Shown here piece after piece: positions 5,196-38,847 of a DNA stretch of 56,545 nucleotides. Every line of letters begins with the position of its first letter. Position 1 is the first letter of the stretch. Origin of the DNA: Anaerolineaceae bacterium (lineage in GTDB: Bacteria > Chloroflexota > Anaerolineae > Anaerolineales > Anaerolineaceae). The notes under the pieces are model-generated. The model saw only the letters and a list, made by a program, of their open reading frames with translations, was not told the DNA's origin and ran no database searches. The translations under genes were made by a program, and so were the position numbers. The stretch spans positions 1 through 56,545 of the forward strand of contig PWSY01000174.1 in assembly GCA_003563055.1 (NCBI GenBank), written 5' to 3'.

Positions 5196-5205
5196 TTCAA
5201 GCCCT

Positions 5206-9935: not shown

Positions 9936-11426
9936 TCATGCCATTCCCACTTCTTTTTCGAAATCAGACAGCAGTTTATCCTGGGTGTCTGCCATCCACT
10001 GATGCATGCGTTTTCTCAGTCTTTCCCTGACCGCATCAAAATCTTCTAAGTCAATCACATTATTCAGTTCATAAGGATCCGTGACCAAATCGTACAGCTC
10101 ATCCATGTCTCCCTGATTCCAGACATACTTGTAAAGATTGTCCGTAACCAAGCGCCACTCAACGGTTTGATGCCAGTCGCCTAAGGGTTTATGCTCAGAA
10201 AACCGATAGGGGTCATCCTCACCCAGAGTACCGTCGGTAAAAGCTGCACAAAGCGCTCTGCCCACCATGTCTTCCGGAGGTTCCTTGCCCACCAGGGAGA
10301 GAATTGTGGGTGCAATATCAATCAATGAGACATTGGCTTCGCTGCGGATCCCAGGCAGGATGGTCCCAGGCAACCGCATCACCATGGGCACCCGTAACCC
10401 CTCTTCATATGGCATCATTTTTTGCCATAAGCCCTGGCTGCCCATTTGTTCGCCATGATCTGATATAAAGATAACCAGCGTTTCATCCAGAATGGCCGCT
10501 TCTTCCAACGCCTGAAGCATCCTGCCAACCTGGTCATCAATCATCGTGCAGTAACCCCAATAAACCGCGACGGATTTTTTCCAGGCATCCCAATCCTCCC
10601 CGTGATCCAGAAATAACTGCCTGTAAAAAGATGTCCGATTGGCCCCGGGCTTACCAGTCTGCGGCCCAAAGTTTGGGGGCATTTCAACCTCTTCAAGGTC
10701 ATACATACTGTAATAAGGCTCGGGAATTAAGAAAGGCGGATGTGGCCCAAACCATCCGGTTACCATAAAAAACGGTTGATCCTTTGGTCGCTCTTTTAGC
10801 TGCTGCAATGATTTGTCAGTCACCCAGGCGTCATAGGTGTATTGTGGATCAAGCATCTGTCTCTTCGGTTTGGGGATGGACATTGAAGGTGTGCGATGGG
10901 TACGGACATCAGGGTCTGCAACTGGCCAGCCATCTGGCAATCCCTGCTCTTCGCACCAGACAGAATAATCATAGGACCCCTGGCCTTCGGCCATATCGAA
11001 CCAGCGGTCAATCACACGTTCACCTTTGTTTGCGACTTCACCGCCATGCACCTCATCCAAACCAAGATCTTTTTCACGACCCTGGAATGCTTTTGGCTGC
11101 TTTTCTGGTTCAAGATGCCACTTGCCGCTGTAAGCAGTGTGATAGCCTTTTTCTCTTAATGTATCTGTAAGCACAGGGGGCTCTCTCAAGGTGCCGTTAT
11201 TGGTCAGCATGCCCAGTTGATGCGGGTATTTGCCAGTAAAGACCGAAGCACGCGAGGGCATACACAGGGGGCTGGAACACAGGGCGCGATCAAATGAAAT
11301 CCCTTCTCGGGCCAACCGATCGATATTTGGGGTGCGGCAGGGCGTTTCCCCCATGAAGCCCAGCGTATCCGTCCGCTGTTGGTCAGAAATCATCAAGAGG
11401 ATATTCGGTGTTTTCTTCCTACGCAT
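9936..11426 (-). CDS. type I sulfatase
   Basis: A 496-residue sulfatase with formylglycine motif C55-M-P-S-R59, followed by ASVFTGKYPHQ. The N-terminal metal site is ISDQQRTDTLGFMG, and the C-terminal site is ISDHGEQMGSQGLWQK. The product starts MRRKKTPNILLMISDQQ with no export signal, so it should act in the cytoplasm. An AGGAAGG upstream of the ATG supports the start. It lies 33 bp upstream of the 8424-9902 sulfatase. The 45-bp gap to the preceding sulfatase contains a short inverted repeat (GCTGGC at 11450-11455 with GCCAGC at 11464-11469) without a T tract, so it is more likely an mRNA-processing or stability element than a terminator. Sequence differences among the sulfatases suggest different sulfate positions or sugars. 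Confidence 0.92.
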   Translation of the reverse strand: MRRKKTPNILLMISDQQRTDTLGFMGETPCRTPNIDRLAREGISFDRALCSSPLCMPSRASVFTGKYPHQLGMLTNNGTLREPPVLTDTLREKGYHTAYSGKWHLEPEKQPKAFQGREKDLGLDEVHGGEVANKGERVIDRWFDMAEGQGSYDYSVWCEEQGLPDGWPVADPDVRTHRTPSMSIPKPKRQMLDPQYTYDAWVTDKSLQQLKERPKDQPFFMVTGWFGPHPPFLIPEPYYSMYDLEEVEMPPNFGPQTGKPGANRTSFYRQLFLDHGEDWDAWKKSVAVYWGYCTMIDDQVGRMLQALEEAAILDETLVIFISDHGEQMGSQGLWQKMMPYEEGLRVPMVMRLPGTILPGIRSEANVSLIDIAPTILSLVGKEPPEDMVGRALCAAFTDGTLGEDDPYRFSEHKPLGDWHQTVEWRLVTDNLYKYVWNQGDMDELYDLVTDPYELNNVIDLEDFDAVRERLRKRMHQWMADTQDKLLSDFEKEVGMA

Positions 11427-11471: not shown

Positions 11472-12908
11472 TCAAATATGGGTGTCATGGCTTAGATATG
11501 TTAATGGGTCAAGCGTCCGTCCATCCTGATCATACCTGTGTCGCCAGCTGCCTTCGTCAAATAGCGTAACCGGGCGCCGAGCATAGGCCACTCTGGATAA
11601 AAGTTCCCGTAATAAACGCTGCGTAACATCTGCATATTTTGGATCATTAATCAGGTTATTCATTTCCCAGGGATCATTGATCTGGTCATAAAGCTCATCC
11701 GGCCGATCGCCAGCATTGGCAATGTAGCGCCATTCTTTCATGGCCAGGGCTTTGCTGTAGGCATTCTCGGTCAGGGCACTCTCTCTCATCGGCTGTGGGT
11801 CATCCGTCAGCAATGGAAACATACTCAACCCCTGCAAATGATCAGGTTTGGGAAGGCCAGCCAGGTCACATAAAGTTGGGAACAAGTCGACCGATTCAAC
11901 CATCTCCTCTGAGACCCTGCCTGAGGGCACATCGCCAGGAAAACTTAACAGCATCGGGATGCGGGTGATCGCCCGGCTGCTGATCCCACCGATTTTGCTC
12001 CACAAGCCGTGCTCACCTGCATAATCGCCGTGATCTGCTGAGAAGACGATAATGGTGTCTTCCAAAAGACCCTGGTTCTCCAATTCGTCCAGAATCAGCC
12101 CAATCCCATAATCCACCTGGCCCACCAAGCCCATGTATGCAGCAACCATCTTTTCTACATCCTCTCTATCTGGCGCTCTCTCATGGTGGGGCACTTTTCG
12201 AATACGATCGGGCTGCCTAGCAATCGCTTCCGGAGAGGCGGAAGGCGGGAGGTCAAAGTTGCCCGGCGGGTACATCGATGCAAAGGGTTCAGAAGCCGTC
12301 AAAGGGCTGTGCGGCCTGGAGAAACTCACCCAGGCAAACCATGGCGCAGATGGATTCCCACGATCGGATGGCTCACCTTGATTGTTAATGAATCGAATCG
12401 TCTGTTTGGCCGTCACGACTTCGCAGGAATGTTCCAGCGGCACGGCTGACGTCTGTCCGTCCCGCCAACCGGTAAACCGCCGATTATCATTAATCTCATA
12501 CAGTCCTGCACCTTCAAGGTATTTTGGATACTCAATAAATTCATCGTAAATAAACTGGCAATCGCGTTCAATCCAGTAGCGAGGTGTATGTAATTTACCC
12601 AGGGCTCCGGTGCGATAGCCAGCTTCCCGGAAAAAACGAAACATGCTGGTCAAGCGCTGATCAGGTTCCCTGCCATAAAGCCCATAATAGCCATGGGTAG
12701 ACGCATACAACCCGGAAAGATGACACATTCTGCTTGGTGTGCAGATCGGGTTTTGGGCATAAGCATTCTCAAAACGCACACCGCTTTCCGCAATTCGATC
12801 AAGGTTGGGGGTGGCAACATCAGGATGCCCGGCGCAAGAGAGAAAGCGGGCATTAAACTGGTCACTGAACAGGAAAAGGATATTCGGACGGTTATTGCTC
12901 TCAGCCAT
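11472..12908 (-). CDS. type I sulfatase
   Basis: A 478-residue sulfatase with formylglycine motif C56-T-P-S-R60, followed by MCHLSGLY. The N-terminal metal motif is FSDQFNARFLSCAG, and the C-terminal site is SADHGDYAGEHGLWSK. The start used here is the ATG at 12908, which overlaps the stop of the upstream sulfatase (ATGGCTGA) and follows a purine-rich GAGGAAGAAGAAA. A longer in-frame start at 12965 would add 19 basic residues inside the upstream gene and is unlikely. There is no signal peptide (MAESNNRPNILFLFSDQF). The tight overlap indicates translational coupling with the upstream sulfatase. The conserved AWVSFSRPHSPL segment belongs to the substrate-pocket side of the domain. Substrate is unknown. 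Confidence 0.92.
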   Translation of the reverse strand: MAESNNRPNILFLFSDQFNARFLSCAGHPDVATPNLDRIAESGVRFENAYAQNPICTPSRMCHLSGLYASTHGYYGLYGREPDQRLTSMFRFFREAGYRTGALGKLHTPRYWIERDCQFIYDEFIEYPKYLEGAGLYEINDNRRFTGWRDGQTSAVPLEHSCEVVTAKQTIRFINNQGEPSDRGNPSAPWFAWVSFSRPHSPLTASEPFASMYPPGNFDLPPSASPEAIARQPDRIRKVPHHERAPDREDVEKMVAAYMGLVGQVDYGIGLILDELENQGLLEDTIIVFSADHGDYAGEHGLWSKIGGISSRAITRIPMLLSFPGDVPSGRVSEEMVESVDLFPTLCDLAGLPKPDHLQGLSMFPLLTDDPQPMRESALTENAYSKALAMKEWRYIANAGDRPDELYDQINDPWEMNNLINDPKYADVTQRLLRELLSRVAYARRPVTLFDEGSWRHRYDQDGRTLDPLTYLSHDTHI

Positions 12909-14607
12909 TTTCTTCTTCCTCTTTTCTCTGAGAACGATCAGCCAGCATGCGTTCCACTTCTTCATCTGGAATATTTAATCGCGTCTGCCAGGCTTCAATA
13001 TCAAGATCCCGCAAATTCACAATCGGTTCATCCTTAACAGCCATCAAAATTTCACTGACCAGGTCATTCATTTGCGCTTTTTCTTCTTCATTCACAATTC
13101 GCAGTGGAAAGCGCGGAAAAGCCTCATTGCGCTGTGGGTTGGGCTGGTATGCCGGGCCGACAAAAAAATCCGTCTCACCAACATACCCTTCCAGACCATA
13201 AGCCTTTTCATAGGCCATCAATTTATCCCGCATTTCCTTCCGGATATTGAGCAGACGATCATCAGGATCCTCATGCAGTAAATTGGTTGTCTCAGAGGGA
13301 TCTTTTTGCATATCAAATAATTGTTCAAAACCACCCCCATAATAATAGTTATATTTATACGCCTGATTACGAATGCTGATCCAACGGCGATTGTTTTCAG
13401 CATATTCAACATACTGCCATGAGCGATCCTTTTTGGGGTTCTCAGCAAACAAGGATTCCCCTGGTAGCTGATAACCACCAGGATAGTCAATTTTGGCGAC
13501 ATCTAACACGGTGGGCAGAATATCATTTAAATCCACAAAATCATCCACAACACTGCCAGGCGCTACATTGCCCGGGCTGCGAATAATGAAAGGAATGCGG
13601 GCACAAACATCGTAGGGATTCCATTTCTGATACAGGCCATAATCCCCCAAAAACTCACCATGATCAGATGTGAAAATGATCATGGTGTTTTTCAATTGAC
13701 CCAGTTCTTCTAGCGTATCCAGAACGCGGCCGATTTGTTCATCGACCATACTGATGCTGGCATAATAAACTTCACGCATTCTGCGTAACACTCTTTCATT
13801 CGGAATGTCGCCCAACATCGCATTTTCTTTGGTTAATGGCGCTAATGGGGTTTGCGAAACATGCGGTTCTGGCAGGTCAGCGTCGGCATATAAATCAGCA
13901 AAACGGTCTACCACATCAAATGGGGGGTGCGGGGCTATCCAGCTTGACCACAAGAAAAACGGCTGTCGGCCGCGGTTACTGCGCAAGTACGCAATTGTCC
14001 GATCTGCCACCCATTTTGTGCCGTGATGCGCTTCTGGAATGATAGACCGCTGCGGCAGCATATACAAAAGGTTGCGCACGCCGTGGATATTTTGTACATG
14101 CCCATACCCCACATCTTTTAAGTACAGCGCATATTCATCCTCTTCCCGAGTGAAGGGGATTTCTTCCATCAATTCCAAATTTAGTAAACCATTATGCCGG
14201 CGAGGGGGTAAAAAATGCATCTTACCGATGGCACGGGCGTCATAGCCATGATCGGAGAGAAGGCGCGGCAGTGTCGGTAAATGGGCGTTGGCTTTTGGAT
14301 GGTGGATATTATCCGGGTAGCCGTGATGCCGGGGAGTCAAGCCCGTGAGCAGGTTATGGCGCGCCGGCAGGCAAATCGGCACAGGGGTATAGGCATGACT
14401 GTATAAACAGCCCTCATTAACCAACCGATCCAGGTGGGGTGTGTGCATAAACCCATAACCAGCCGCACAGATCGTGTCAAAGCGTTGCTGATCGGTCATC
14501 ATCAACAGGATATTGGGCCGTTTTTCTGTTTCTCCCACATGAAATTTATGGGCCCTGGTTTGATGATCCTTTATTGTAAAACCATTTAATGTTTTATTAT
14601 CTGTCAT
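12901..14607 (-). CDS. type I sulfatase, first of four in the operon
   Basis: A sulfatase of 568 residues from the ATG at 14607; a TTG at 14643 would add 12 residues, and neither start has a clear ribosome binding site. The formylglycine motif is C79-L-P-A-R83, followed by HNLLTGLTPRHHG. The N-terminal metal site is MTDQQRFDTICAAG, and the C-terminal one is TSDHGEFLGDYGLYQK. About 25 residues of unrelated sequence precede KRPNILLMMTDQQ, but they are polar and not a signal peptide. The C-terminal tail, about 80 residues past the usual end and rich in Glu/Arg, is longer than in the neighbours. It is the gene immediately after the ABC importer genes, with a gap of about 70 bp and no promoter evident. 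Confidence 0.9.
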   Translation of the reverse strand: MTDNKTLNGFTIKDHQTRAHKFHVGETEKRPNILLMMTDQQRFDTICAAGYGFMHTPHLDRLVNEGCLYSHAYTPVPICLPARHNLLTGLTPRHHGYPDNIHHPKANAHLPTLPRLLSDHGYDARAIGKMHFLPPRRHNGLLNLELMEEIPFTREEDEYALYLKDVGYGHVQNIHGVRNLLYMLPQRSIIPEAHHGTKWVADRTIAYLRSNRGRQPFFLWSSWIAPHPPFDVVDRFADLYADADLPEPHVSQTPLAPLTKENAMLGDIPNERVLRRMREVYYASISMVDEQIGRVLDTLEELGQLKNTMIIFTSDHGEFLGDYGLYQKWNPYDVCARIPFIIRSPGNVAPGSVVDDFVDLNDILPTVLDVAKIDYPGGYQLPGESLFAENPKKDRSWQYVEYAENNRRWISIRNQAYKYNYYYGGGFEQLFDMQKDPSETTNLLHEDPDDRLLNIRKEMRDKLMAYEKAYGLEGYVGETDFFVGPAYQPNPQRNEAFPRFPLRIVNEEEKAQMNDLVSEILMAVKDEPIVNLRDLDIEAWQTRLNIPDEEVERMLADRSQRKEEEENG

Positions 14608-14676
14608 CAAGGAGAAAACCCTTCTATTAATTTCACCAGCCAAACATATACAGACTGGTTGATAAGTCAGTGACGA

Positions 14677-15696
14677 TTATTCAGAACTTGTCGGCGTATT
14701 CTTGGTCGTTACCAGGTGGCAGGCAACTTCATGGTCTTCTTCGCACAGTTCCAGTGGGGGTTCTTCTTGAAAACAAACATCGACTGCCACCGGGCAGCGG
14801 GTATTGAAATTGCAGCCTTTGGGCGGGTTAGACGGGCTGGGAACAGTTCCCTCAAGGATTGTGCGATCACGCCTGGCTTCCAACGAGGGGTCCGGGATCG
14901 GCACAGCCGACAGGAGAGACTGGGTATAGGGGTGTTTTGGGTTGCGATAAAGCGACCGGCTGCTCGTGATCTCCACAATTTTCCCCAGGTACATCACTGC
15001 AACCCGGTCACTGATATGCCGAACCATACTGAGATCATGTGCAATAAACAGGTATGTCAGCCCCAATGAATTCTGCAATTGTTTCAATAAATTCACCACC
15101 TGGGCTTGAATGGAAACATCCAATGCGGAGATGGGCTCATCACAAACAATAAACTCCGGCTCCATTGCCAGGGCTCTGGCAATACCAATCCTCTGACGTT
15201 GACCCCCCGAAAACTCATGGGGGTAGCGCCGTGCATAACCGGGGTTCAAGCCCGTCATGCTGAGCAGTTCTTCTACACGCGCTCTTCGCTGGTTGCGTGG
15301 GACAATGCCATGATACACCATCGCTTCGCTAATGATGTTCTCCACTGTCATGCGTGGGTTTAGCGAGGAATAAGGATCTTGAAAAATAATTTGAAGCTTG
15401 GTACGCATCTGGCGCATTTCTTTAGGCGACAAATCTTCTAAATTGACCCCGCTATAAAAGACTTCACCACCCGTTGGTTGATACAGGTGCAGCAGCGTTC
15501 TGCCAGTGGTTGTTTTCCCACAACCACTCTCGCCAACCAGCCCTAAGGTTTCACCGCGTTTGATCTTAAAGCTGACGCTATCCACAGCCTTAACGTCCCC
15601 CACCCGCCTTTGAACAATCAAACCCTTTGTGATAGGGAAGTATTTGCGTAAATTTCGAACTTCGATTAATAATTCGTTTGTGTCTGACCTGATCAC
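14677..15696 (-). CDS. oligopeptide/dipeptide-type ABC transporter ATP-binding protein (OppF/DppF-like)
   Basis: A 339-residue ATPase subunit. Walker A is GESGCGKTT, the signature is SGGQRQR, Walker B is FIVCDEP, and the H-loop is IAHDLS. The C-terminal oligopeptide-transport domain carries [15 protein letters not shown], the cysteine-rich tail typical of this subfamily. It pairs with the second ATPase to power import through the two permeases. The GTG at 15696 is chosen because GAGGT precedes it by 7 nt; an upstream in-frame start at 15738 lies inside the neighbouring gene. The genes for both ATPases overlap closely. This transporter family carries peptides but also oligosaccharides and other polar molecules, so peptide specificity should not be assumed here. 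Confidence 0.93.
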
Positions 15697-15713
15697 CAAT
15701 GCAACCTCTATTT

Positions 15714-16685
15714 TTAAAGTCGGTCTTTTTCCCAACAAGCTGAGTAGTGGTCTTTTTCAACCTCCTCAAGCATCGGGTTCTCTTCCAGGCATTTTTCCAC
15801 CTGGTATGAACAACGCTCGGCAAACGGGCACCCTTTTGGCAAATCGAGCTGATTGGGGGGCTGTCCTGGGATGGTTTCAAGCTCTGCCGAGGTCTCCTCA
15901 TCCAGGCGTGGCAATGATGCCAGCAGTCCCCGTGTATAAGGATGTTTGGGATGGCTGTAGAGCTTTTCAACGGGTGCCTTTTCGACGATATAACCGGCAT
16001 ACATCACCTTGACTCGCTCCACCAATCGGGCGACCACCCCCAGATCATGTGTGATCCAAATCACTGCCATCCCCAAATCCTTTTGTAAACTCTTCACCAA
16101 CTCGGTGACCTGCGCCTGGATGGTGACATCCAGGGCAGTGGTTGGTTCATCTGCAATCAACAGGCTGGGGCTGCAAGACAGGGCCATGGCAATCATCGCA
16201 CGCTGACGCATACCGCCTGAAAATTCATAAGGATAACGGTCCAGGCATGCCTTCGGATCCGGTATGCCCACCAGATCCAACAGCTCAATCACCCTTTTTT
16301 TCGCCATCTCATTGCTGAGCTGCAAATGCTCTTCCATTGTTTCGGTTAACTGTCGCCCAATCGTCAGAACCGGGTTAAGGGAGGTCATCGGATCCTGAAA
16401 GATCATGGCAATCTCTTTGCCGCGGATGTTACGCATCTGATCTTCTTTCAAAGACAACAAATCCTTACCCTTGAATAAGATTTTGCCTGATTCAATTTTT
16501 CCCGGGGGTTGCGGAATGATGCGCAGGATCGAGCGCATGCTGACGCTCTTACCGCAGCCGCTTTCCCCGACCAGGCCCACCAGCTCACCTTCTTCAATCA
16601 AGAAATCAATCCCATTAACAGCCTGGACGACTCCCGCTTTGAGATGAAAAGTTGTTGTTAAGTCAGTTACCTCTAATAATGCCAT
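15714..16685 (-). CDS. oligopeptide/dipeptide-type ABC transporter ATP-binding protein (OppD/DppD-like)
   Basis: A 323-residue ATPase. Walker A is [11 protein letters not shown], the signature is SGGMRQR, Walker B is LLIADEP, and the H-loop is ITHDLG. The C-terminal extension contains [15 protein letters not shown], the cysteine cluster common to DppD/OppD subunits. The likely start is the ATG at 16685 (MALLEVTDL), which lies just past the stop of the upstream permease gene; the longer frame to 16733 would overlap that gene. It acts on the cytoplasmic face of the membrane with the partner ATPase at 14677-15696. Confidence 0.93.
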
Positions 16686-16701
16686 CAATAGATCTCGCTT
16701 A

Positions 16702-17610
16702 TCAATTAAATAATTGCTGTGGATCAAATGCATCGCGTAGGCCGTCTCCGATAAAATTGATGCACAGGATTGTCGTCAGGGTAAAGGCTGCTGAAGGCAT
16801 CCAGATCCAGGGCTGGTTTTGGAGGATGATCAAATTGCGCGCATTTTCCATCATGTTTCCCCAGGTGGGCGTCGGCAAGGGTACCCCAATCCCTAAAAAG
16901 CTCAAACCGGCTTCTGACAGGATAGCGGCACTCACTGCGAAGGTGATATTCGCCATCAGCGGTGCCAGGGTATTGGGCAAAATATGACGGGTAATGATCA
17001 TTCTATCCGGTAAACCCAGGGCATGGGTTGCGTGGACAAACTCATAATTTTTCAAAGACAGAAATTGTCCCCTGACCAACCGGGTGGTTGCCGGCCAGCG
17101 AAGACCGCCAATAATCAAGATGACATTCATCAAACCCGGGCCAACAAAGGCAGCCACCGTCATCATGATGATCAGGGGCGGAAAGGTCATCATCACATCT
17201 GTGATTCTTGAAACAACCATATCCGGTATTTTCCCAAAATAGCCCGCAATGGCCCCTAAAATAATCCCTAACCCAATCGAAATGGCCGCCGCTGCCATAC
17301 CAACCATCAGCGAAATTCGCCCGGCATAGAGCGTCCGTGTGAAAATATCCCGTCCCAACGTATCGGTACCAAAAATATACGCCCCTCCGGGTGCCTGGTT
17401 CCTAACCGCCAGATCCATGCCAATCGGGTCGTACGATGTAAATAGCGGCGCGCCGAAACACAGCACAAAAATCGCTACCAGCACAAAGGCCGAAACGACC
17501 GCCAGTCTGTGCTGTAAAAATCGGCGCAGGGCCAGTTTCAGGGGGGATTCAATTTTTTTATCCTGATAGGTTGTTAATTGTTTGGTCTCGGTTGATGTTT
17601 TCATAGTCAT
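16702..17610 (-). CDS. oligopeptide-type ABC transporter permease (OppC/DppC-like)
   Basis: A 302-residue inner-membrane permease. The N-terminal cytoplasmic segment is followed by a first membrane helix (LAVVSAFVLVAIFVLCFG), the conserved FGTDTLGRDIFTRTLYAGR loop, and a block of helices with the EAA-type coupling motif region HATHALGLPDRMIITRHILP. It ends FIGDGLRDAFDPQ, as is usual in this subfamily. Its ATG shares one base with the TAA stop of the preceding permease (TAATG). It forms the channel with the 17610-18569 protein. Confidence 0.93.
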   Translation of the reverse strand: MTMKTSTETKQLTTYQDKKIESPLKLALRRFLQHRLAVVSAFVLVAIFVLCFGAPLFTSYDPIGMDLAVRNQAPGGAYIFGTDTLGRDIFTRTLYAGRISLMVGMAAAAISIGLGIILGAIAGYFGKIPDMVVSRITDVMMTFPPLIIMMTVAAFVGPGLMNVILIIGGLRWPATTRLVRGQFLSLKNYEFVHATHALGLPDRMIITRHILPNTLAPLMANITFAVSAAILSEAGLSFLGIGVPLPTPTWGNMMENARNLIILQNQPWIWMPSAAFTLTTILCINFIGDGLRDAFDPQQLFN

Positions 17611-18569
17611 TATTCGTATCGCACCCGGGGGTCAATCAGGGCGTAGGTGATATCGGTAATCAAATTGGCAAAGAGAACAAAGGCAGCAATTACCAGGTTA
17701 GCCCCCATGATGATCGGGTAGTCACGCGAGATCACAGCCCGGTAATACAAACGACCCATGCCGGGCCAACCAAAAATGGTCTCAATGAACACTGCGCCAG
17801 CCACAAATTGCGATATGGTCAGCCCAATCATGGTGACGACAGGGATCAAAGCATTCCGCAGTGCATGGCGGGCAACAACGATTCGACGTCGCATCCCCTT
17901 GGCTGTGGCTGTAACAACATAATCTGCATTGAGCACCTCAAGCATGCTAAAGCGCTGATAGCGCATAAATTGTGCACCATGCATGATGGCAAGGATTGAT
18001 GCTGGCAGGACGAGATGATGTAGCAAATTCGCAAATGTGTTCACCATTGGCGTTCGCATCCCCCCGGCAGGCACCCACCGCAGACGCACCGCAAAAACAT
18101 ACATCCCGATGATGCCTGATATAAAGGCCGGCATGGACAGGCCGATAAACGACAAGCCGGTCAGGAAAAAATCTGCCAGCGAATACTGCTTCAAAGCCGT
18201 GAAAACACCCAGCGGGATGCCCAAGATGACGGCCACCAGCAACCCAGCCCCCATCAAAACACCCGAGTTTTTCAACCGCTCCCATAAGAGTTCACCAACG
18301 GGATAACCTTCTACAAAACTGAAACCAAAATTACCTTGCAGAACATTGCCCATCCATTTTAAATAGCGGATGGGGGGCGGGTCATTCAACCCCAATCTTT
18401 CACGTAATGCGATGATATCCGCTTCAGTCATGTAGGCGATGGTTTCTTCACTCATGAAATAATCAGCCATATCGCCCGGGGTGATCTCGATCATCACAAA
18501 CACCAAAATCGTAATCACGATCAAGATTGGGATATTGATCAGGAGCCTGCGAAGGATGTATCTGCCCAT
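17610..18569 (-). CDS. oligopeptide-type ABC transporter permease (OppB/DppB-like)
   Basis: A 319-residue permease starting MGRYILRRLLINIPILIVI, the typical OppB N-terminal membrane helix. The long periplasmic/external loop before the second helix and the coupling segment ATAKGMRRRIVVARHALRNA are characteristic. It ends ALIDPRVRYE, as in most family members. It is separated by 119 bp from the binding-protein gene. That gap contains a perfect 13-bp hairpin (18643-18672), which may let the binding protein be made in excess over the permeases. Confidence 0.93.
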   Translation of the reverse strand: MGRYILRRLLINIPILIVITILVFVMIEITPGDMADYFMSEETIAYMTEADIIALRERLGLNDPPPIRYLKWMGNVLQGNFGFSFVEGYPVGELLWERLKNSGVLMGAGLLVAVILGIPLGVFTALKQYSLADFFLTGLSFIGLSMPAFISGIIGMYVFAVRLRWVPAGGMRTPMVNTFANLLHHLVLPASILAIMHGAQFMRYQRFSMLEVLNADYVVTATAKGMRRRIVVARHALRNALIPVVTMIGLTISQFVAGAVFIETIFGWPGMGRLYYRAVISRDYPIIMGANLVIAAFVLFANLITDITYALIDPRVRYE

Positions 18570-18642
18570 GAATGTATTCTTTCGCTAAAAATTATGATAA
18601 TCTGATAATAAATAATAAATCGTTATTGTGCTACCATTTGAT

Positions 18643-18672
18643 ATTAGAGGGCAGGGTTTCCTGCCCTCTAAT
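18643..18672 (-). promoter_or_regulatory. intercistronic hairpin between binding-protein and permease genes
   Basis: A perfect 13-bp inverted repeat (stem 18643-18655 with 18660-18672, loop of four bases) lies 16 bp past the binding-protein stop. The stem is GC-rich in the middle (GAGGGCAGG). No run of T follows on the minus strand, so it is a poor rho-independent terminator; an mRNA 3'-protecting or partial attenuation element, as known for other binding-protein operons, fits better. Confidence 0.6.
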
Positions 18673-18688
18673 TATGATTCTCATTAAC

Positions 18689-20458
18689 TTACTCGGTCAT
18701 TTCCCAGAGATGGGCATTGTTACGATAGGGGCCGCCACCGCCAGCCGGCTGCCACCAGAAGTTAGCAACATTTTCGCTGGCTGCACCATACCGGTTCCCA
18801 ATCCACATTTGCAGATCAGGCAGGGTTTGGTTGTGAAGCAGGCAGAAATCACGGGCTGCCTGGAAGTATTCCTCCGTTGTGGGAGCCTGGTTGATGTTCG
18901 CAATTGCATCCTCAAGGCCAGCCTCTGCCATATCAAATCCCATGAAGTCGCCACCCTGGCCGCCAGCATTGGTCCAGCCGCGTTCCAGCTCAAAAGCAAA
19001 CACGGGGTTGGCAGCACCGCGGTAGTTGAAGGTCCAGCCGCCATCAGGTGAATAGGCATCGCGGAAGCTGGGCACGTCAATAAAGCGGAAGGTCATGGTG
19101 ATGCCGATATCGGAAAGGTAAGCCTGCACTGCCTGTAAAGCAGAGTTATGATGCAGGTTGTCGTACCCTGAATGGCCAACCCACTCCATGACAATATCCG
19201 AGGGGTCCACACCTGCTTCTGCCAATAAGGCCTGGGCTTGCGCAGGATCATACTCAAACCAATCCACATCAGGGTGCCACAGGTCTTCAGTCACCATCGG
19301 GCATGGCAGCACGACATGGGTGCCGTCGAGCACCTGCTCGACAATCGCCTGACGATCAATCGCATACAAAATGGCCTGGCGTACTTTAATATCCTGCCAG
19401 TATTCCGGCACCTCATTATAGTGAATGTGCGTGTAAACAACCACACCAGAGCTGTTAAAGTAAATGTTGAATTCATCACCTAAAAGGTCCAGGTCAGTTG
19501 GCTCAACATAGGTGAAATCAATTTCTCCAGCCTGCAGAGCAAGCAAAGCGCTGCTGAGCTCGCCGCCAAACAGGCGAATGATGATTCGGTCCAGTTTCGG
19601 GCGGCCCAGGAAATAATATTCATTAGGCTCCAAGGCCAAATAATTGTCGCGTTCCCATTCGGCCACCACGAAAGCACCTGAGCCGACCTGTTTATCAGGA
19701 TTCCGCCACCAGTCAGTGGTCATGATATCGGCAGGCGAGAAATCAATCGCGTGCTCGGGCAAAATATAGGTGCGGAATTGGGTCGCAAAGTGGCGTGGGC
19801 TGGGCGCGGCCAGGGTGTATTGAATTGTAAAATCATCAATAACCTGCACAGCTTCAAGCTCATCCATTTCACCGTTGATCCGCTCTTCGTAACCAAGCAC
19901 CTGGTCAAATGCCAGGGCGCGGTGAATGATCCGGTCAGGGGCATAGTCGGGATCGGTGACGAAATCAGCCGTGAACTTCCAATCATGGGCTGTCAGTTGC
20001 TCACCGTCACTCCACATGATATCATCGCGTAAAGTGTAGGTCCAAACCGTGAAATCCTCATTAGGTTCCCAAGACTCCAGCGCAAAAGGAACAATTTCGG
20101 ACAGGTCTTCACTGAAGATCGTTGGGGTGACATACAAAGTGGCATGCATATCATGGCCAGCTGCGCCGGTCCAGGGCCGCGCCACTTCTTCCTCACCACC
20201 GCCTGGGCCTGTGGTGAAAGCACCTGTTAACACCTGTTCCACTGCGGGTTCTTCAACGACAGGTTCCTCGACCTCAGGTTCCTCGACCTCAGGTTCCTCG
20301 ACCTCAGGTTCCTCGACGACAGGCTCCTCAACAACGGGTTCTTCAACAACGGGTTCTTCAACAACCGGTTCTTCGACAACCGGTTCGGGTGCACAGGCAA
20401 CCATTACCATACTGAAAACAATCAGCATGCTAATTATCAATAGTATTCTTTTCTTCAT
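18689..20458 (-). CDS. extracellular solute-binding lipoprotein, family 5 (SBP_bac_5)
   Basis: A 589-residue lipoprotein that should capture the ABC substrate outside the membrane. The signal peptide has a basic start (MKKR), a hydrophobic core and lipobox VMVAC, so C22 is lipidated. Residues 27-71 are nine tandem five-residue units (VVEEP or EVEEP), an acidic proline-rich linker. The remaining sequence is a family 5 binding domain with EPNEDFTVWTYTLRDDIMWSDG, typical of peptide/oligosaccharide binding proteins. SD AAGGAG lies 9 nt before the ATG. It is the first transport gene after the GntR regulator. The natural ligand is unknown; the surrounding sulfatases and sialate enzymes favour a sulfated oligosaccharide over a peptide, as inference. 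Confidence 0.92.
   Translation of the reverse strand: MKKRILLIISMLIVFSMVMVACAPEPVVEEPVVEEPVVEEPVVEEPVVEEPEVEEPEVEEPEVEEPVVEEPAVEQVLTGAFTTGPGGGEEEVARPWTGAAGHDMHATLYVTPTIFSEDLSEIVPFALESWEPNEDFTVWTYTLRDDIMWSDGEQLTAHDWKFTADFVTDPDYAPDRIIHRALAFDQVLGYEERINGEMDELEAVQVIDDFTIQYTLAAPSPRHFATQFRTYILPEHAIDFSPADIMTTDWWRNPDKQVGSGAFVVAEWERDNYLALEPNEYYFLGRPKLDRIIIRLFGGELSSALLALQAGEIDFTYVEPTDLDLLGDEFNIYFNSSGVVVYTHIHYNEVPEYWQDIKVRQAILYAIDRQAIVEQVLDGTHVVLPCPMVTEDLWHPDVDWFEYDPAQAQALLAEAGVDPSDIVMEWVGHSGYDNLHHNSALQAVQAYLSDIGITMTFRFIDVPSFRDAYSPDGGWTFNYRGAANPVFAFELERGWTNAGGQGGDFMGFDMAEAGLEDAIANINQAPTTEEYFQAARDFCLLHNQTLPDLQMWIGNRYGAASENVANFWWQPAGGGGPYRNNAHLWEMTE
20246..20380 (-). repeat. 15-bp tandem repeat coding for (V/E)VEEP linker
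   Basis: Nine in-frame 15-bp units encode VVEEP (units 1-5 and 9) or EVEEP (units 6-8) just after the lipidated cysteine of the binding protein. Units 6-8 are nearly identical to each other at DNA level, suggesting recent copy-number change. It is a flexible spacer between membrane anchor and binding domain. Confidence 0.9.
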
Positions 20459-21838: not shown

Positions 21839-22627
21839 ATGGAAAATAACAGACTTCGAGAATTAATTAATACAGACAAGCCCAGCATCGGTATTCGCCT
21901 TGAAGGACAATGGCCAACGATGGTTGAAATCATTGGTGCTACTGGATTATTTGATTATGTGGAGATTTTGGCTGAATATGCCCCCTATTCACTGTTTTCT
22001 TTGGATAATATCGGACGAGCTATCCAGCTTTTCCCTCATATGTCCGGTATGATCAAAATTCAGCAGGAATCTCGCACCCACCTGGCATCACGTGCGACCA
22101 GTTCAGGCATCCAAAACGTTCTCTTCAGCGACATTCGCACTGTCGAAGAGGCCCAAGATTGCGTTAAAGCTGTCCGGGCTGAAACACCTGCCACAAAGGG
22201 CTTACATGGTGCCAGACACGGTCGTGATGTGGGTGTGTTTCTGGAAGCTGGCTCACCCGCATTTGTGCAAGCTTTAGAAGACACCGTGATCGCCTTCATG
22301 ATTGAGAAAAAACAAGCTGTTGAAAACCTTGAAGACATCTTATCCGTTGAGGGGGTTGACATGGTTCAATTTGGGCCTGGCGATTATTCGATGAGTATGG
22401 GGCTGCTGAAAAATGACCCGGCTATTGCAGAGGTTCAAAAGCAAACCATAAAAACAGCCCTAAAATTAGGCCTGGCACCAAGAGTGGAAATCGACCATCC
22501 TCAGGAAGCAGAGGAATACCTCGAGATGGGCGTTAAACATTTCAGCCTGGGAACCGATGTCACGATTATCTATCATTGGTGTAAAGAAAATGGCGTATGC
22601 CTAAAAGATATGATGAAAAGTGGATAA
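21839..22627 (+). CDS. HpcH/HpaI-type aldolase family protein, divergent active site
   Basis: A 262-residue protein of the HpcH/HpaI aldolase/citrate lyase family, which cleaves 2-keto-3-deoxy acids to pyruvate plus an aldehyde with a divalent metal. Metal ligands are visible as E156 in MIEKKQAVENL and D182 in FGPGDYS. The usual catalytic EH-A-P motif reads EYAPYS: the His is Tyr47. The substrate Arg in the following strand appears to be Lys (MIKIQQ). The reaction may therefore differ from a classical aldolase. It is the first gene of the plus-strand unit, with only 10 bp to the sulfatase ATG, and is preceded by AAGAAAGGG. Confidence 0.78.
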   Translation: MENNRLRELINTDKPSIGIRLEGQWPTMVEIIGATGLFDYVEILAEYAPYSLFSLDNIGRAIQLFPHMSGMIKIQQESRTHLASRATSSGIQNVLFSDIRTVEEAQDCVKAVRAETPATKGLHGARHGRDVGVFLEAGSPAFVQALEDTVIAFMIEKKQAVENLEDILSVEGVDMVQFGPGDYSMSMGLLKNDPAIAEVQKQTIKTALKLGLAPRVEIDHPQEAEEYLEMGVKHFSLGTDVTIIYHWCKENGVCLKDMMKSG

Positions 22628-22637
22628 AGGACAGAAT

Positions 22638-24149
22638 ATGACTGCCTCAAAAGAGACTACGTCCCAACCCAATATATTGTGGATCTGCACGGATGAGCAA
22701 CGTTTGGATACATTGGGGTGTTATGGTAATCCTTTTGTTTTGACTCCTCATATCGATCAATTAGCCTTGAGCGGGGTGCGCTTCAATCACGCTTATGTTC
22801 AATGCCCGGTCTGCACCCCAAGCAGAAGTTCCTTCCTCACCGGCCGTTATACGCGCACAACTCGTAATCGGCAAAATGGCCAAGCGATTGACGCGAGTGA
22901 GATCCTCATACCCAAAATTTTTCGAGATCATGGCTACTACACCGGACTGGTTGGAAAATTACACCTCTCACCTTGCTCTCCTGATGTTTCTCCTTTTGGA
23001 GAACCCCGCACTGATGATGGTTATGTCGAATTTCACTGGTCCAATTCACCAAACCCAAAGTGGCCGAATAATGAATATTCACAGTGGCTAATGCGTAAAG
23101 GAAAACAATTTCAAACAAAACCATATAATGGGTCAAAATATGTGCATCAAGGGATGAGCCCAGAATATCATCAAACCAGGTGGGTTGCAGATACTGCAAT
23201 CCGGTTTATTGAGACAACGGCCCATTTCAACCACCCCTGGTTTTTATCTGTCAATCCTACCGACCCCCACTTTCCGCTTGACCCCCCAATCGAGTACCTT
23301 GAACGTTATTTAGATATACTTGAAGACATTCCCCTTCCGAAATATGTTTCTGGCGAATTAGAAAACAAACCCAATGTGCAAAAAGCAGATCATATTGCCG
23401 CCACCAACCAACCAGGACGTTTTTCCTATGGAGACATGACCGATTTTGACCAGCAAATGATTCGGGCTGCTTATTGGGCCATGGTCGATCAGATTGATGT
23501 TCAAATTGGACGGATCATCGATATGCTCCATCAAACCGGTCAGTATGACAACACGATCATTATTTTTATGTCTGACCACGGTGATATGCTTGGTGACCAT
23601 GGCATTCACCTAAAGGGTCCCTATTTTTATGACCCCTTGATTCGTGTCCCTTTGATCATTTCCGGGCCTGGTGTCATAGCTAATAAACAACGTCAAGCCT
23701 TAATCGAATTAGTGGATCTGGCTCCCACGTTGCTGGAAGCATCAGGGATGCCCTTCTATCCTGGCATGCAAGGAAAGTCTTTTTTGAGCCTCTTAACCGA
23801 GGACAACCAGACGGATCATCACCGGGAAGATATATACGCTGAATCCTATAATGCTTCCTGGAGAACCTGGGACCGGAAACCACGGGAAAAAATCGAAAAA
23901 TATGAACAAAAAGAAGATCTAATCTCACAACCCTTTACAACCATGCTGCGCACCAATCACCACAAACTGGTTGTGTATCATGGTGAGGAAATGGGTGAGC
24001 TGTATGACCTTCAAACAGACCCTAATGAAACAACGAACCTGTGGTCAGATCAGGAATATAAAAATTTAAAAATGCAACTACTTTTACGAATGTGTGATCG
24101 GATGGCCTGGACATCTGACCCACTGCCAGAACGAATATCACCATTTTAA
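22638..24149 (+). CDS. type I sulfatase of the divergent operon
   Basis: A 503-residue sulfatase with formylglycine motif C59-T-P-S-R63, followed by SSFLTGRYTRTTRNRQNG. The N-terminal metal site is TDEQRLDTLGCYGN, and the C-terminal one is MSDHGDMLGDHGIHLKG. The start at 22638 is supported by AAAGGA with 6-nt spacing; an earlier GTG at 22620 lies inside the aldolase gene. It lacks a signal peptide (MTASKETTSQPNILWICTDE), matching the other five. It is co-transcribed with the aldolase and the FAD-dependent oxidoreductase and probably removes sulfate before or after oxidation of the same substrate. Confidence 0.93.
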   Translation: MTASKETTSQPNILWICTDEQRLDTLGCYGNPFVLTPHIDQLALSGVRFNHAYVQCPVCTPSRSSFLTGRYTRTTRNRQNGQAIDASEILIPKIFRDHGYYTGLVGKLHLSPCSPDVSPFGEPRTDDGYVEFHWSNSPNPKWPNNEYSQWLMRKGKQFQTKPYNGSKYVHQGMSPEYHQTRWVADTAIRFIETTAHFNHPWFLSVNPTDPHFPLDPPIEYLERYLDILEDIPLPKYVSGELENKPNVQKADHIAATNQPGRFSYGDMTDFDQQMIRAAYWAMVDQIDVQIGRIIDMLHQTGQYDNTIIIFMSDHGDMLGDHGIHLKGPYFYDPLIRVPLIISGPGVIANKQRQALIELVDLAPTLLEASGMPFYPGMQGKSFLSLLTEDNQTDHHREDIYAESYNASWRTWDRKPREKIEKYEQKEDLISQPFTTMLRTNHHKLVVYHGEEMGELYDLQTDPNETTNLWSDQEYKNLKMQLLLRMCDRMAWTSDPLPERISPF

Positions 24150-29170: not shown

Positions 29171-29333
29171 CAAACTATACAATATCACATAATGATAATC
29201 TTTTATAGAACACCTCTCATCTCCGACCATAAAATGGCTATTTCCGACACATCCTGCCTTTCTTCCTGCCGCCGAACCCAATCAGGTGACTGGAATAAAG
29301 TCTCCCCACCATCTTCTGACATCATGGGTAGTT

Positions 29334-31601
29334 ATGAAAAATAACAGAGAAAAACCACACAGCCAGAAAAACAATACCACATTAACCAAATCTGAAAAGA
29401 TAGAAAAACTCCCCTGGACCATCGCCTACGTTGCCACCAATTCCATAGCTGTCCACTTAACCTTCATCGGATCAATTTTTATCCTCTATCTCAATGAATT
29501 GGGGATCAACAAAGGCTTGCTGGGGGTTATTCTTTCCTTGCTTCCCTTTATCAATATCCTTTCGATTTTTGTAGCGCCCAAGATTAATGAATTCGGCGTT
29601 CGCAAAGTATTTATCATCAGCTTTACAATTCGCTATTTAATTTGGCTGCCAATCATCTTTTCGCCATGGGTCAGAAATCAGTATGGGGAAAATGCAATGG
29701 TCTTGCTTTTAATTTCGATTGTGATCATCTTCGCATTTTTCAGGATGGTTAACCTGGTGGCAATCCTTCCTTGGAAGCAGGAAATCATTCCTGAATCCAT
29801 TCGCGGGATCGTGTCTGCAAAACAAATGGTCTTTGCAAATATCGCAAACATCGTTACCGTCACATTAGCGGCTATTTACATCGAACATTCCCAGGGCATC
29901 AGGCCGTTTAATGTCTTGTTTGTTTTAGGTGTCATCATTGGCTTAATTGCCGCTTGGGAAGCGTCTCACTTCCCTGGCGGTGCTCCCAAAAGAAGGGATA
30001 AGTTAAAAGATTCGATCCTACACCAAATCTTTTCACCTCTTAAAGATCATGATTTTCGCAAATATATGCATGGCACAGGATGGATCATTCTGGCCGAATC
30101 ACTTTTTCCCTATGTCGTGCTCTACATGCGTGAAGGCATTGGACTCAGCGCAGGCAATGTTGTTCTGCTTCAAACCGGGTCATTAGTCGGTGGTGCTGTA
30201 ACCAGTTATCTTTGGGGTTGGGCGGCAGACCGTTTTGGCAGCAAACCCATTCTGCATGTCAATACGGTTTTATTCGCGATATTGCCTATCCTCTGGTTTG
30301 TGATGCCATACCAATCCCCTCTCAGCGTAACTATCGCCATGGCTATAGCTTTTTTGCAGGGAGCAGCCCAAATGGGAAGATTCATTGGAAATTCCCGTCT
30401 ACTGTATAATCGGATCGTCCCAATTAAATCATCTGCGGCTTACATGGCTTTATATAATGCCTGGTTGGGTCTCATTATGGGTGGGAGCCAATTATTGGGC
30501 GGTGCACTATTGAACGCTATTTCAGACTTATCCGGTTCCTTGTGGCGTTTCCCTATTAATGAGTATAGCGTTTTATTCGGCTTTATTTTTCTATTTTCCA
30601 TTTTAGGCATCATCGTAACAACCTTTATAGAAACGAAAGATGAAATTAGCATGGGGGAATTTGTAGGCATGTTTTTTAGAGGCAACCCATTGTTGGCATT
30701 TGAAACCCTGATCAGTTTTCAACGCCCAAAAACAGAACGCGACACCATCAGCCTCACTGAACGAATAGGTCGCGCCCAATCTGACCTGACCATTGATGAA
30801 TTACAGTCCAGCCTGAATGATCCCAGATTTTATGTTAGGTACGAGGCATTAATATCCATTGCCAGGCATCATCCACATCCCCAATTAACCAAATCACTCA
30901 TCAATATCCTGAATGGAAAAGATCCAGCGTTGAGTGTCATCAGCGCCTGGGCTTTGGGCCGCATAGATGATCCAACTGCCCATTATGCACTTAGAAACGC
31001 ATTGATATCATCAGAGTTTCGATCAGTAAAAGCACACTGTGCAAGGTCACTGGGTGCATTAGGAGATGTCCAATCGATACCAATATTGATCAATTTATTT
31101 AACCAGGAAACGGACCGAGGCTTATTACAATCCTACGCTGTTGCGCTTGGCCATCTTGGTGTGAGTAGTGTATTTGATGATATTGTTAAATTATTGCTTT
31201 ACAAAACAAACAATCAAGATCAGCTAGAACTGGCCCTGACATTGGGCAGGTTGATGGGTGATGAAGATGACTTTATATTGGTCAATCGTCAATTACAGGA
31301 AGATTTCTTCACCAATACCGCCCAATTCCTTCATTCATTTCGTTCTTCATCAGTATTAGCACTTAACCCCAATATATTGAAAATTTGTGAAACCGCCTTT
31401 GCAAATAAAAACCTAAAAAAAGCAGTCGAAGAATTATCAAAGCTGTCCTTGCAGGCGACTCAAGATTTGAGATCAAACCATATCCATCGTTTGGTTAAGG
31501 AGTTCTCAAACTATTTACTCACAATAAAATATGTACGCAAAGATTTGATACTTTTATTGATCTTCATTCTCTATGCGTTAAATGAGCGGAAAATAGACTA
31601 A
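29334..31601 (+). CDS. MFS transporter fused to HEAT-repeat domain
   Basis: A 755-residue protein. About residues 25-445 form a major facilitator superfamily transporter with about 12 hydrophobic segments; the cytoplasmic motif between helices 8 and 9 reads WGWAADRFGSKPILHV, close to the family G-x-x-x-D-R-x-G-R. About residues 490-680 are tandem HEAT-like repeats: PRFYVRYEALISIARHH, then PALSVISAWALGRIDD, SVKAHCARSLGALGD and GLLQSYAVALGHLGV. A final hydrophobic stretch (LILLLIFILYAL) is near the C-terminus. The start used is ATG 29334; a GTG at 29286 would add 16 residues, and neither has a convincing site. The HEAT domain is predicted cytoplasmic and could bind a partner protein. Substrate unknown. 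Confidence 0.82.
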   Translation: MKNNREKPHSQKNNTTLTKSEKIEKLPWTIAYVATNSIAVHLTFIGSIFILYLNELGINKGLLGVILSLLPFINILSIFVAPKINEFGVRKVFIISFTIRYLIWLPIIFSPWVRNQYGENAMVLLLISIVIIFAFFRMVNLVAILPWKQEIIPESIRGIVSAKQMVFANIANIVTVTLAAIYIEHSQGIRPFNVLFVLGVIIGLIAAWEASHFPGGAPKRRDKLKDSILHQIFSPLKDHDFRKYMHGTGWIILAESLFPYVVLYMREGIGLSAGNVVLLQTGSLVGGAVTSYLWGWAADRFGSKPILHVNTVLFAILPILWFVMPYQSPLSVTIAMAIAFLQGAAQMGRFIGNSRLLYNRIVPIKSSAAYMALYNAWLGLIMGGSQLLGGALLNAISDLSGSLWRFPINEYSVLFGFIFLFSILGIIVTTFIETKDEISMGEFVGMFFRGNPLLAFETLISFQRPKTERDTISLTERIGRAQSDLTIDELQSSLNDPRFYVRYEALISIARHHPHPQLTKSLINILNGKDPALSVISAWALGRIDDPTAHYALRNALISSEFRSVKAHCARSLGALGDVQSIPILINLFNQETDRGLLQSYAVALGHLGVSSVFDDIVKLLLYKTNNQDQLELALTLGRLMGDEDDFILVNRQLQEDFFTNTAQFLHSFRSSSVLALNPNILKICETAFANKNLKKAVEELSKLSLQATQDLRSNHIHRLVKEFSNYLLTIKYVRKDLILLLIFILYALNERKID

Positions 31602-36993: not shown

Positions 36994-37566
36994 TTAATCC
37001 TTTGGCACCTGGTGGTGTTCTCGACAGCGGGCTTCATATAATTCTTGTGCACCAACCACCACTATCGGCTCATTATAGTGTGCCGGCGCACCATTAACCA
37101 GGCGTTGAGTCCGACTGGCAAGGTCCCCACAAACCATACAGATAGCGTGTAATTTTTCAACGCGCTCAGCACGTGCCATAAGTTGCGGCATGCAACCAAA
37201 GGGTTCCCCGCGAAAATCGGTGTCCAGCCCGGTCACAATCACCCGCAGACCACGTTCTGCTAACTGTTCCACCACATCGATAATTTCATCAGAAAAGAAT
37301 TGCACCTCATCCACCCCAACAACCGTCGCATCCGGAGATAATGTTTCCAGGATTTCATGTGGTTCTTCAACAGGATTGGCATCCACATCGATCCCGGAAT
37401 GTGAGGTTACTTTTTCATGATTATAACGATGATCAATCATTGGTTTAAAAACCTGTACTTCCTGTTTGGCAATTCTCGCCCTGCGCAAGCGGCGGATCAA
37501 CTCTTCTGTTTTCCCACAAAACATCGAGCCGCAAATGACTTCTACTGAACCTACAACATGCTTCAT
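36994..37566 (-). CDS. tdk: thymidine kinase
   Basis: A 190-residue type II (TK1-like) thymidine kinase. Walker A is GSMFCGKT (residues 13-20), followed by [13 protein letters not shown]. Walker B and the catalytic Glu are in [21 protein letters not shown] is the conserved thymidine site. Zinc-binding cysteines are in CMVCG and near the C-terminal RCREHH. The ATG at 37566 is chosen because AGGAG precedes it by 6 nt; the TTG two codons earlier lies in the spacer. It follows a terminator (37588-37624), so it needs its own promoter, which I did not identify. Confidence 0.95.
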
Positions 37567-37587
37567 AGTCAACTCCTGAGATAAGTA

Positions 37588-37658: not shown

Positions 37659-38138
37659 TTAGACGGTGATTTCTTCCGCAGCTTCAGGAAGTTTATAGCC
37701 CTGTTGGCGTAATGCCTTTTTAAGATCAATCAATGATTTACGGCCAAAACCGCTGACATCCAACATCGCCTGCTCGCCGCCTTCAAGCCGTTCAAGCACA
37801 TCGCCGACCGTATTCAGGCCAGCTTCTTGAAGAACATTGTCAACGCGGGTACCCAAATTGAGCTCTTCAATAGGTCGATCCAGGGAGGTCTTCCCTTCTT
37901 CCTTGGCCTGCTTATCTTCCAGATATTCCTGGCGTGCTTGCAGGCGTTTATAGAAGCGGTCAACCTGACCCTCACGGTCAAGAATTCGCTGCTGCTGACC
38001 GGTGTAGAAAGGGTGACAATTTGAACAAACCTCGGTGCGGATCTCACTTCTTGTGGAACCTGTTTTCCAGGTTGCCCCACAGGAGCCACAAATCACCGTT
38101 GCTTCGGGATGATATTCAGGGTGAATTTCTTTTCTCAT
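37659..38138 (-). CDS. rpmE: 50S ribosomal protein L31 fused to RNA-polymerase alpha-CTD-like domain
   Basis: A 159-residue protein. Residues 1-70 are ribosomal protein L31: MRKEIHPEYH start and zinc-type cysteines C17, C20, C38 and C41, with CHPFYTGQQ. About residues 84-151 are an alpha-CTD-like helix-hairpin-helix domain: SLDRPIEELNLGTRVDNVLQ, GLNTVGDVLERL, GFGRKSLIDLKKAL. R98 and N101 align with E. coli alpha R265 and N268, and G132 and K134 align with G296 and K298, the DNA-contacting residues. A charged linker (about 70-84) joins them. Plain L31 is only about 70 residues. It follows rpmA by 36 bp and ends at a terminator. Confidence 0.88.
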   Translation of the reverse strand: MRKEIHPEYHPEATVICGSCGATWKTGSTRSEIRTEVCSNCHPFYTGQQQRILDREGQVDRFYKRLQARQEYLEDKQAKEEGKTSLDRPIEELNLGTRVDNVLQEAGLNTVGDVLERLEGGEQAMLDVSGFGRKSLIDLKKALRQQGYKLPEAAEEITV

Positions 38139-38174: not shown

Positions 38175-38441
38175 TTACTCATTTTCTGGAATGGTAACGA
38201 CATGCACCTTTTTACGTCCTTTAGCCATCGTTTCAAAATGCACGAGGCCTTCGGTGGTTGCAAAAATGGTGTGGTCTTTGCCCATACCAACGTTCCAGCC
38301 AGGATGAATCTTTGTCCCGCGCTGACGGACAAGGATATTGCCGCTGATGACATATTCACCACCAAATTTCTTGATGCCCAATCGTTTGGCTTTACTGTCA
38401 CGGCCGTTACGTGAAGCGCCGCCGCCTTTTTTGTGTGCCAT
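38175..38441 (-). CDS. rpmA: 50S ribosomal protein L27
   Basis: An 88-residue L27 starting [16 protein letters not shown], with no Firmicutes-type cleavable N-terminal extension. Conserved segments [13 protein letters not shown] and [14 protein letters not shown] are present. Its ATG shares one base with the rplU stop (TAATG), giving coupled synthesis with L21. Confidence 0.97.
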
Positions 38442-38764
38442 TATTCTTGCTCCATTTCTATAGAATCAACCAGCAAGCGAGTGTATTGCTGTCGATGTCC
38501 AGATTTTACCCGATAACGCTGCCTCGGACGATACTTGAAAACCAAAATTTTGCGACCCTTGAAGTGATCAACCACTGTTGTTTGTACCGTTGCACCTTCG
38601 ATGGTCGGCGTGCCGATGGTAACTTTTCCATCATCTACGGATAATAAAATATTTTCCAGGGTTAAGCTTTCGCCAACCTCGTTTGGCAAACGATCAACTT
38701 CGAGGATGTCGCCTTCAGCCGCCCGATATTGCTTACCGCCTTGTTCAACAATTACAAATTTCAT
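38441..38764 (-). CDS. rplU: 50S ribosomal protein L21
   Basis: A 107-residue L21 starting [19 protein letters not shown], with the family's C-terminal [16 protein letters not shown] region. The ATG at 38764 is chosen because [13 protein letters not shown] is the family N-terminus and GGAG lies 8 nt upstream; the longer frame to 38785 adds seven residues unlike the family. It is transcribed from the promoter at 38884-38912 with a leader of about 110 nt that begins with a hairpin. Confidence 0.97.
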
Positions 38765-38847
38765 TGCCTCTGCTCCAATCTTCACTTAGCCAATCTCGCT
38801 CGCGTATTACCGCCAGGGATCGGGAAAGTTGGATTTACATAATTTTA

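Follow-up and report, generated by a model that had tools for sequence, protein, structure and literature searches.

The rpmE gene of this Anaerolineaceae bacterium encodes a fusion protein, in which ribosomal protein bL31 is followed by a second domain predicted to have the fold of the C-terminal domain (CTD) of the RNA polymerase alpha subunit. In L31 proteins of the class Anaerolineae, the conserved part of this domain appears from the alignments to have shifted to a basic last helix; the changed sequence suggests that the domain serves the ribosome rather than promoter DNA. We give about an even chance to the reading that it is a recruited alpha-CTD, kept under purifying selection, which binds the 30S head or ribosomal RNA.

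The gene lies at positions 37659..38138 of the minus strand of the window, i.e. the whole 56,545-nucleotide stretch of DNA that was analysed, starts with ATG and specifies 159 aa and a stop, with 0 internal stops. The original prediction, made from the sequence alone, had described it as L31 joined to an alpha-CTD-like domain, and domain searches bear this out: both Pfam families exceed their curated cut-offs, Ribosomal_L31 (PF01197) with 91 bits over aa 1-66 (E 5.5e-26; cut-off 27) and RNA_pol_A_CTD (PF03118) with 48.3 bits over aa 79-144 (E 8.3e-13; cut-off 23.8). Phmmer searches of the PDB agree, as the N-terminal half finds bL31 chains and the C-terminal half RNA polymerase alpha chains. 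The bL31 domain (aa 1-66, 37941..38138) contains the zinc-ribbon cysteines C17, C20, C38 and C41, invariant in an alignment of 26 fusions (A1). It is followed, on the same strand, by a linker (aa 67-83, 37890..37940) and by the alpha-CTD-like domain (aa 84-151, 37686..37889), the last helix of which (aa 133-146, 37701..37742) bears a basic patch of K140, K141 and R144 at alpha positions 304, 305 and 308. Two NCBIfam models score above cut-off, both of them L31 models (NF000612, 86.2 bits against a cut-off of 70, and TIGR00105), so that automatic annotation would be expected to label the fusion bL31; the NCBIfam models of RNA polymerase alpha match the CTD part, below their whole-protein cut-offs.

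Upstream of the fused gene lie rpmA (bL27; 38175..38441, Pfam 128.6 bits) and rplU (bL21; 38441..38785, 117.6 bits), and downstream a thymidine kinase gene that is kept in relatives (tdk; 36994..37572, 182.9 bits), all on the minus strand. Among 66 named fusion loci, 59 of 65 testable ones have L27 upstream and 57 of 61 have tdk downstream. The same gene order occurs at 14 plain-L31 loci (L27 upstream 11/12, tdk downstream 11/14). Since the order L27-L31-tdk is common to both kinds of locus, this is the native rpmE in fused form, and no other L31 gene turned up in the incomplete genome. An extra paralogue standing beside a normal L31 was considered and rejected: the assembly (75.5% complete) holds one L31, which is the fusion, and 20 genomes of the same order have exactly one L31 match each. 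Nor did the polymerase give up its CTD to L31, as rpoA still has one. Two alpha-CTD matches were found in the assembly, the fusion and a 340-aa open frame on contig C83 that was taken as rpoA, and among ten genomes of the order there are two such matches in nine and three in one.

Judging from profile matches, the class also contains repeated or otherwise placed alpha-CTDs. A long open frame (L196, G013:C19; 652 aa within its fragment) has at least two alpha-CTD matches, the genome G087 has nine PF03118 matches, and in the genomes G009, G032, G045 and G187 CTD matches lie within open frames of 684-1477 aa. Elsewhere in the window, positions 2175-24149 look by eye, from the translations, like a cluster for the use of sulfated glycans, with six sulfatase-like open frames (2175-3545, 8424-9902, 9936-11426, 11472-12965, 12901-14643 and 22620-24149) and, amid them, an oligopeptide-type ABC transporter (14677-20458). 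Also by eye, a 543-aa open frame of the minus strand (3603-5234) resembles a NanE-like ManNAc-6-phosphate epimerase joined to a ROK-type kinase, and a 771-aa open frame of the plus strand (29286-31601) has an MFS-type membrane half followed by HEAT-like repeats.

For structure prediction two alignments were made from the 66 named fusion loci, A2 with 43 of them and A3 with 34, each together with the window protein; 14 of 80 loci were left out of both. With the window protein and 43 relatives, AlphaFold2 predicted, with moderate confidence (mean pLDDT 76.1), a single long helix at aa 55-83, which runs on from the end of L31 through the linker, and five short alpha-CTD helices at aa 90-146; as the pTM is 0.41, the placement of the L31 half relative to the CTD half is not fixed by the model, which counts against our main reading. 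The ten best VIA-align rows are all RNA polymerase entries (E. coli, Synechococcus, Streptomyces, B. subtilis and tobacco plastid), with Z 9.9-10.5 and an rmsd of 0.9-2.0 A over 57-69 residues, led by E. coli alpha (Z 10.5, 1.6 A over 65 residues). Listed rows from other proteins are N-terminal parts of Dmc1/RAD51 (Z 8.1-9.0). The top Foldseek ranks are ribosome chains matched by the N-terminal half; its nine matches with E <0.001 are all ribosome entries, and the best alpha CTD reached an E of only 2.8e-3, with a probability of 1.00. Structure prediction, proposed at the outset as a check, thus assigns the C-terminal half to the alpha-CTD fold. The fold also appears in the model of a divergent relative, L114 (mean pLDDT 80.9; best Z 10.1, against RNA polymerase alpha chains), even though its PF03118 score of 14.2 bits, like that of L099 (18.2), is below the cut-off of 23.8. 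By eye, L114 has Q and E at positions 265 and 268, so its DNA contacts seem mostly gone while the predicted fold is retained.

The taxonomic spread, which had likewise been proposed as a check, agrees with a genuine fusion. A search of 396 class genomes with the A1 profile found it in at least 149, from 20 families, and in every one of the 37 that belong to its own order; in the class search 149 of the best 150 matches reach model position 135 or beyond and were counted as fusions. Other families of Anaerolineae have a plain L31 with a tail instead of the CTD, and among 30 class loci, which are those of the best-scoring L31s and not a random draw, the CTD is present in 5 and absent in 25. When the single protein was searched against a phylum sample of 400 genomes, 40 of the matches listed extend to residue 146 or further, all within the class (36 in the own order and 4 in others), and outside the class none of the matches listed goes past residue 103. 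In a collection of 84,980 species, the best 80 of 574 relatives all carry titles of Chloroflexota groups. Most of the query is matched in 66 of these 80 (down to L129), and the named fusion records belong to Anaerolineaceae, Pelolinea, Leptolinea, Mesolinea, Thermoflexales, Promineifilum and 'Ardenticatenia'; five Caldilineaceae and one Chloroflexaceae MAG among the 80 have a plain L31. An artefact of assembly or reading frame is out, because full-length fusions recur across many separate genomes, including the single-contig G253, G027 and G213. A mobile origin was also rejected on plasmid evidence, as tblastn against 72,556 plasmid records gave 48 records with a match and none covering 80% of the query.

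As a separate observation, fused L31s without most or all of the zinc cysteines, in which the alpha-CTD is kept, occur in family f37 and in Promineifilum (L126, L207-L213 and L232). They have WSGTHPF, WSGSHPF or WSGNHPF at the second CxxC, and the matching f37 genomes have one L31 match each.

The CTD probably joined L31 once, early within the class. In a tree of the first 60 L31 CTDs (thinned at 75% identity), 37 rpoA CTDs (thinned at 85%) and the reference, the L31 and rpoA CTDs fall on opposite sides of one branch (SH-aLRT 81; 68 columns), with the f18/f43/f47 type on long inner branches. This tree fits a single origin from an alpha-CTD and is no proof of it; the 68 columns, and the deciding branch of 81 only, count against our main reading.

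No characterised example had been known to the original prediction, and we found no description of an L31-alpha-CTD fusion in the open-access literature searched. With bL31 of the zinc type (rpmE; PF01197, NF000612/TIGR00105) the protein shares the full core, the cysteine pairs and the L21-L27-L31 locus, but the solved bL31 chains that it matched align no further than the beginning of the linker, whereas the fusion has a second folded domain. That domain resembles the CTD of RNA polymerase alpha (PF03118) in its fold, hairpin, several contact residues and nearest solved structures. It differs in that its N-side partner is L31, not the alpha NTD, in a three-residue insertion after position 284, and in that L31 CTDs do not conserve N268, S299 and E302 and mostly have a basic 304/305/308 patch.

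To our knowledge, ribosomal proteins rarely gain folded domains that have a known job elsewhere. The bL21 of alphaproteobacteria carries a helix-hairpin-helix (HhH)-like extension, and is thus alike in combining a ribosomal protein with such a domain and unlike in both the protein and the HhH type. A plain-L31 relative in another Chloroflexota genome (L139:3001-3963, plus strand; 321 aa) also consists of L31 and a distant C-terminal HhH-type domain (HHH_5, 25.0 bits; cut-off 27), but with a long Pro/Ala/Glu-rich spacer between them, and RNA_pol_A_CTD gave no match in this protein at E 0.1. Its tail would at best be a separate event, possibly a second independent addition of HhH to L31. The fusion described here is a lineage-specific domain addition to a ribosomal protein, unusual in the polymerase origin of the added part.

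When the window protein is mapped on E. coli alpha, R98, N101, G132, K134, S135 and D138 correspond to R265, N268, G296, K298, S299 and E302, which we take to be the UP-element contact set of alpha. The four residues named by the original prediction (R265, N268, G296 and K298) are therefore in place, and at these the window copy looks promoter-competent. The prediction's wider reading of the C-terminal half as a DNA-contact surface is not supported as a general one, for across the family selection seems not to have kept the four residues. In a comparison of both CTD groups on one profile alignment from the same class, all four residues are found in 86 of 86 distinct rpoA CTDs and in 28 of 138 distinct L31 CTDs (the window's genus among them), fractions which are not class averages since the sampling is weighted to the window's order. 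Duplicates had been merged before counting (167 L31 CTDs to 138 and 71 rpoA CTDs to 69), and three aligned rows were dropped, i.e. two from the multi-CTD protein L196 and the reference. The first 69 distinct rpoA CTDs are the better-scoring rows, which could overstate conservation; control rpoA CTDs from 17 further genomes of our choosing (ten poor scorers, the lowest, G116, not being among them, and seven of the own order) have the four residues in 17/17, the six-residue set in 16/17 and the basic patch in 0/17. Position by position, the 138 L31 CTDs have R265 in 121, G296 in 134, K298 in 105 and S299 in 73, and 92 have D in place of E302.

These counts bear on the possibility that the domain is a functional alpha-CTD, through which the ribosome would attach to DNA, activators or RNA polymerase and so tether transcription to translation. 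The alpha-CTD fold, the presence of equivalents of R265, N268, G296, K298 and S299 in the window protein and the 28 L31 CTDs that retain the first four would all fit it, but N268 is kept in 39 of the 138 and lost in 99, with D (27) or E (24) in 51 and K in 18, and the full six-residue set occurs in one L31 CTD of 138 against 85 of 86 rpoA CTDs. Even L066, a close relative that shares 78% identity with the window protein, carries K where alpha has N268. Ribosomal protein L2 has been reported to bind RNA polymerase alpha (cited in PMC10931766); on the other hand, the C-terminus of bL31 faces uS13, uS14, uS19 and helix 42 according to PMC7530986, and in one coupled complex, described in PMC12820379, it is NusG that reaches uS10. 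We consider such a tether unlikely. A transcription link is possible, at the same low probability, and would be best placed in the lineages that keep R265, N268, G296 and K298. Slightly less probable still is a division of roles, in which these lineages, among them the window's genus, would use the domain for a NusG-independent link between translation and transcription and the others would have turned it to rRNA.

What most L31 CTDs share instead is the basic last helix. Positions 304, 305 and 308 are all basic in 124 of the 138 L31 CTDs and in 0 of the 86 rpoA CTDs, and the mean net charge of the helix is +3.63 over all 138 L31 CTDs as against -0.93 over 69 of the rpoA CTDs. After thinning to at most 70% identity the picture is the same (N268 in 20 and K304 in 65 of 71 L31 CTDs). 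The patch is absent in 14 of the 138. Thirteen of these belong to f18, f43, f47, f27 or the like-typed named record L127, and one is a row cut by a contig end (L203, retained in the count with a gap at 304, 305 and 308). Having no basic patch, the f18/f43/f47/f27 type cannot act through it, and several patch-less L31 CTDs, whose last helix is close to neutral or negatively charged, would need another contact, which speaks against the main reading, namely binding to the 30S head or rRNA. So does the fact that a basic helix could equally bind the backbone of DNA, and the 28 L31 CTDs with R265, N268, G296 and K298, including those of the window's genus, leave further room for DNA binding.

Selection on the two halves was compared between the window protein and six relatives. 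For the CTD, dS was computable in four of six comparisons, which give a dN/dS of 0.05-0.07; for the L31 core the ratio is 0.03-0.07 in five, dS being near saturation in both cases; dN in the CTD is about 1.6 to 2.7 times that of the core (six comparisons), and in the pair L036/L037 the CTD has a dS of 0.34 and a dN of 0. The low dN/dS in both halves points to purifying selection on L31 core and CTD alike, weaker on the CTD, and this faster evolution of the CTD is another point against the main reading. It would suit better a tolerated add-on, in which the CTD would amount to a folded form of a dispensable, long and variable L31 tail: 39 plain L31s have tails after the core (median 52 residues, many of them charged), and the 25 of 30 best-scoring class loci without a CTD fit as well. 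A dispensable tail, however, would hardly be expected to show such a low dN/dS, to occur in every one of the 37 order genomes searched, to keep a basic patch in 124 of 138 cases or to retain its predicted fold in a member as divergent as L114, and we regard this explanation as improbable, on a par with the tether.

The position of bL31 on the ribosome suggests where the added domain would act. In other bacteria, as described in PMC7530986, the N-terminus of bL31 is anchored at 5S rRNA and uL5, while the C-terminus, past a flexible linker, reaches uS13, uS14, uS19 and 16S helix 42; PMC10931766 also mentions that it lies at the 30S head and takes part in association. Loss of the last residues of bL31 impairs subunit association (PMC9966373 and PMC7530986), and these residues matter for 100S formation (PMC7530986). 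In the fusion, the N-terminal zinc domain would anchor on the central protuberance of the 50S subunit as usual and the C-terminal helix would extend to these partners at the 30S head, so that the extra CTD would be kept on the ribosome at that site. There, the basic last helix and the helix-hairpin-helix (GxG) loop may grip ribosomal RNA or a head protein, with the GxG hairpin, from what is expected of the fold, facing phosphate groups. Its most likely role would be to strengthen or tune the subunit bridges B1b/B1c in head movement, subunit association or dimer formation. The simplest reading is that the domain binds rRNA or a head protein, which we think is about as likely to be right as wrong.

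Alpha-CTDs bind proteins besides DNA, and the domain might therefore recruit a partner to the 30S head through its protein-binding faces, whether a factor acting in translation or hibernation or one of the partners of RNA polymerase alpha, for instance an activator or a sigma factor. The structural matches include structures that contain Spx, CAP and sigma region 4, but the positions 285-288, presumably the face that meets CAP, are mostly G at 285, mostly D or E at 286 and variable at 287 and 288 in L31 CTDs, which names or excludes no partner. The importance of the last residues of bL31 for 100S formation (PMC7530986) would also be in keeping with such recruitment, which we nevertheless hold to be quite improbable. 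Feedback is given the same small chance: free fused L31 would bind DNA or the L21-L27-L31 message through its CTD and repress its own synthesis. The fusion does belong to the L21-L27-L31 gene group, and L31 feedback exists elsewhere, since E. coli bL31 represses its own rpmE mRNA; the repressing part, however, is the disordered N-terminus and not the C-terminus (both from PMC10931766), and the DNA-contact residues are not conserved family-wide.

A piece of the transcription machinery has been taken up permanently into L31 across much of the class; if the main reading, that the domain binds rRNA or a protein of the 30S head, is right, it sits at an intersubunit bridge. The contrast with rpoA of the same class makes a testable prediction of how a DNA-binding domain changes when its partner changes. 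For genome annotation, the case warns against inferring promoter binding from an alpha-CTD match alone when it lies outside rpoA.
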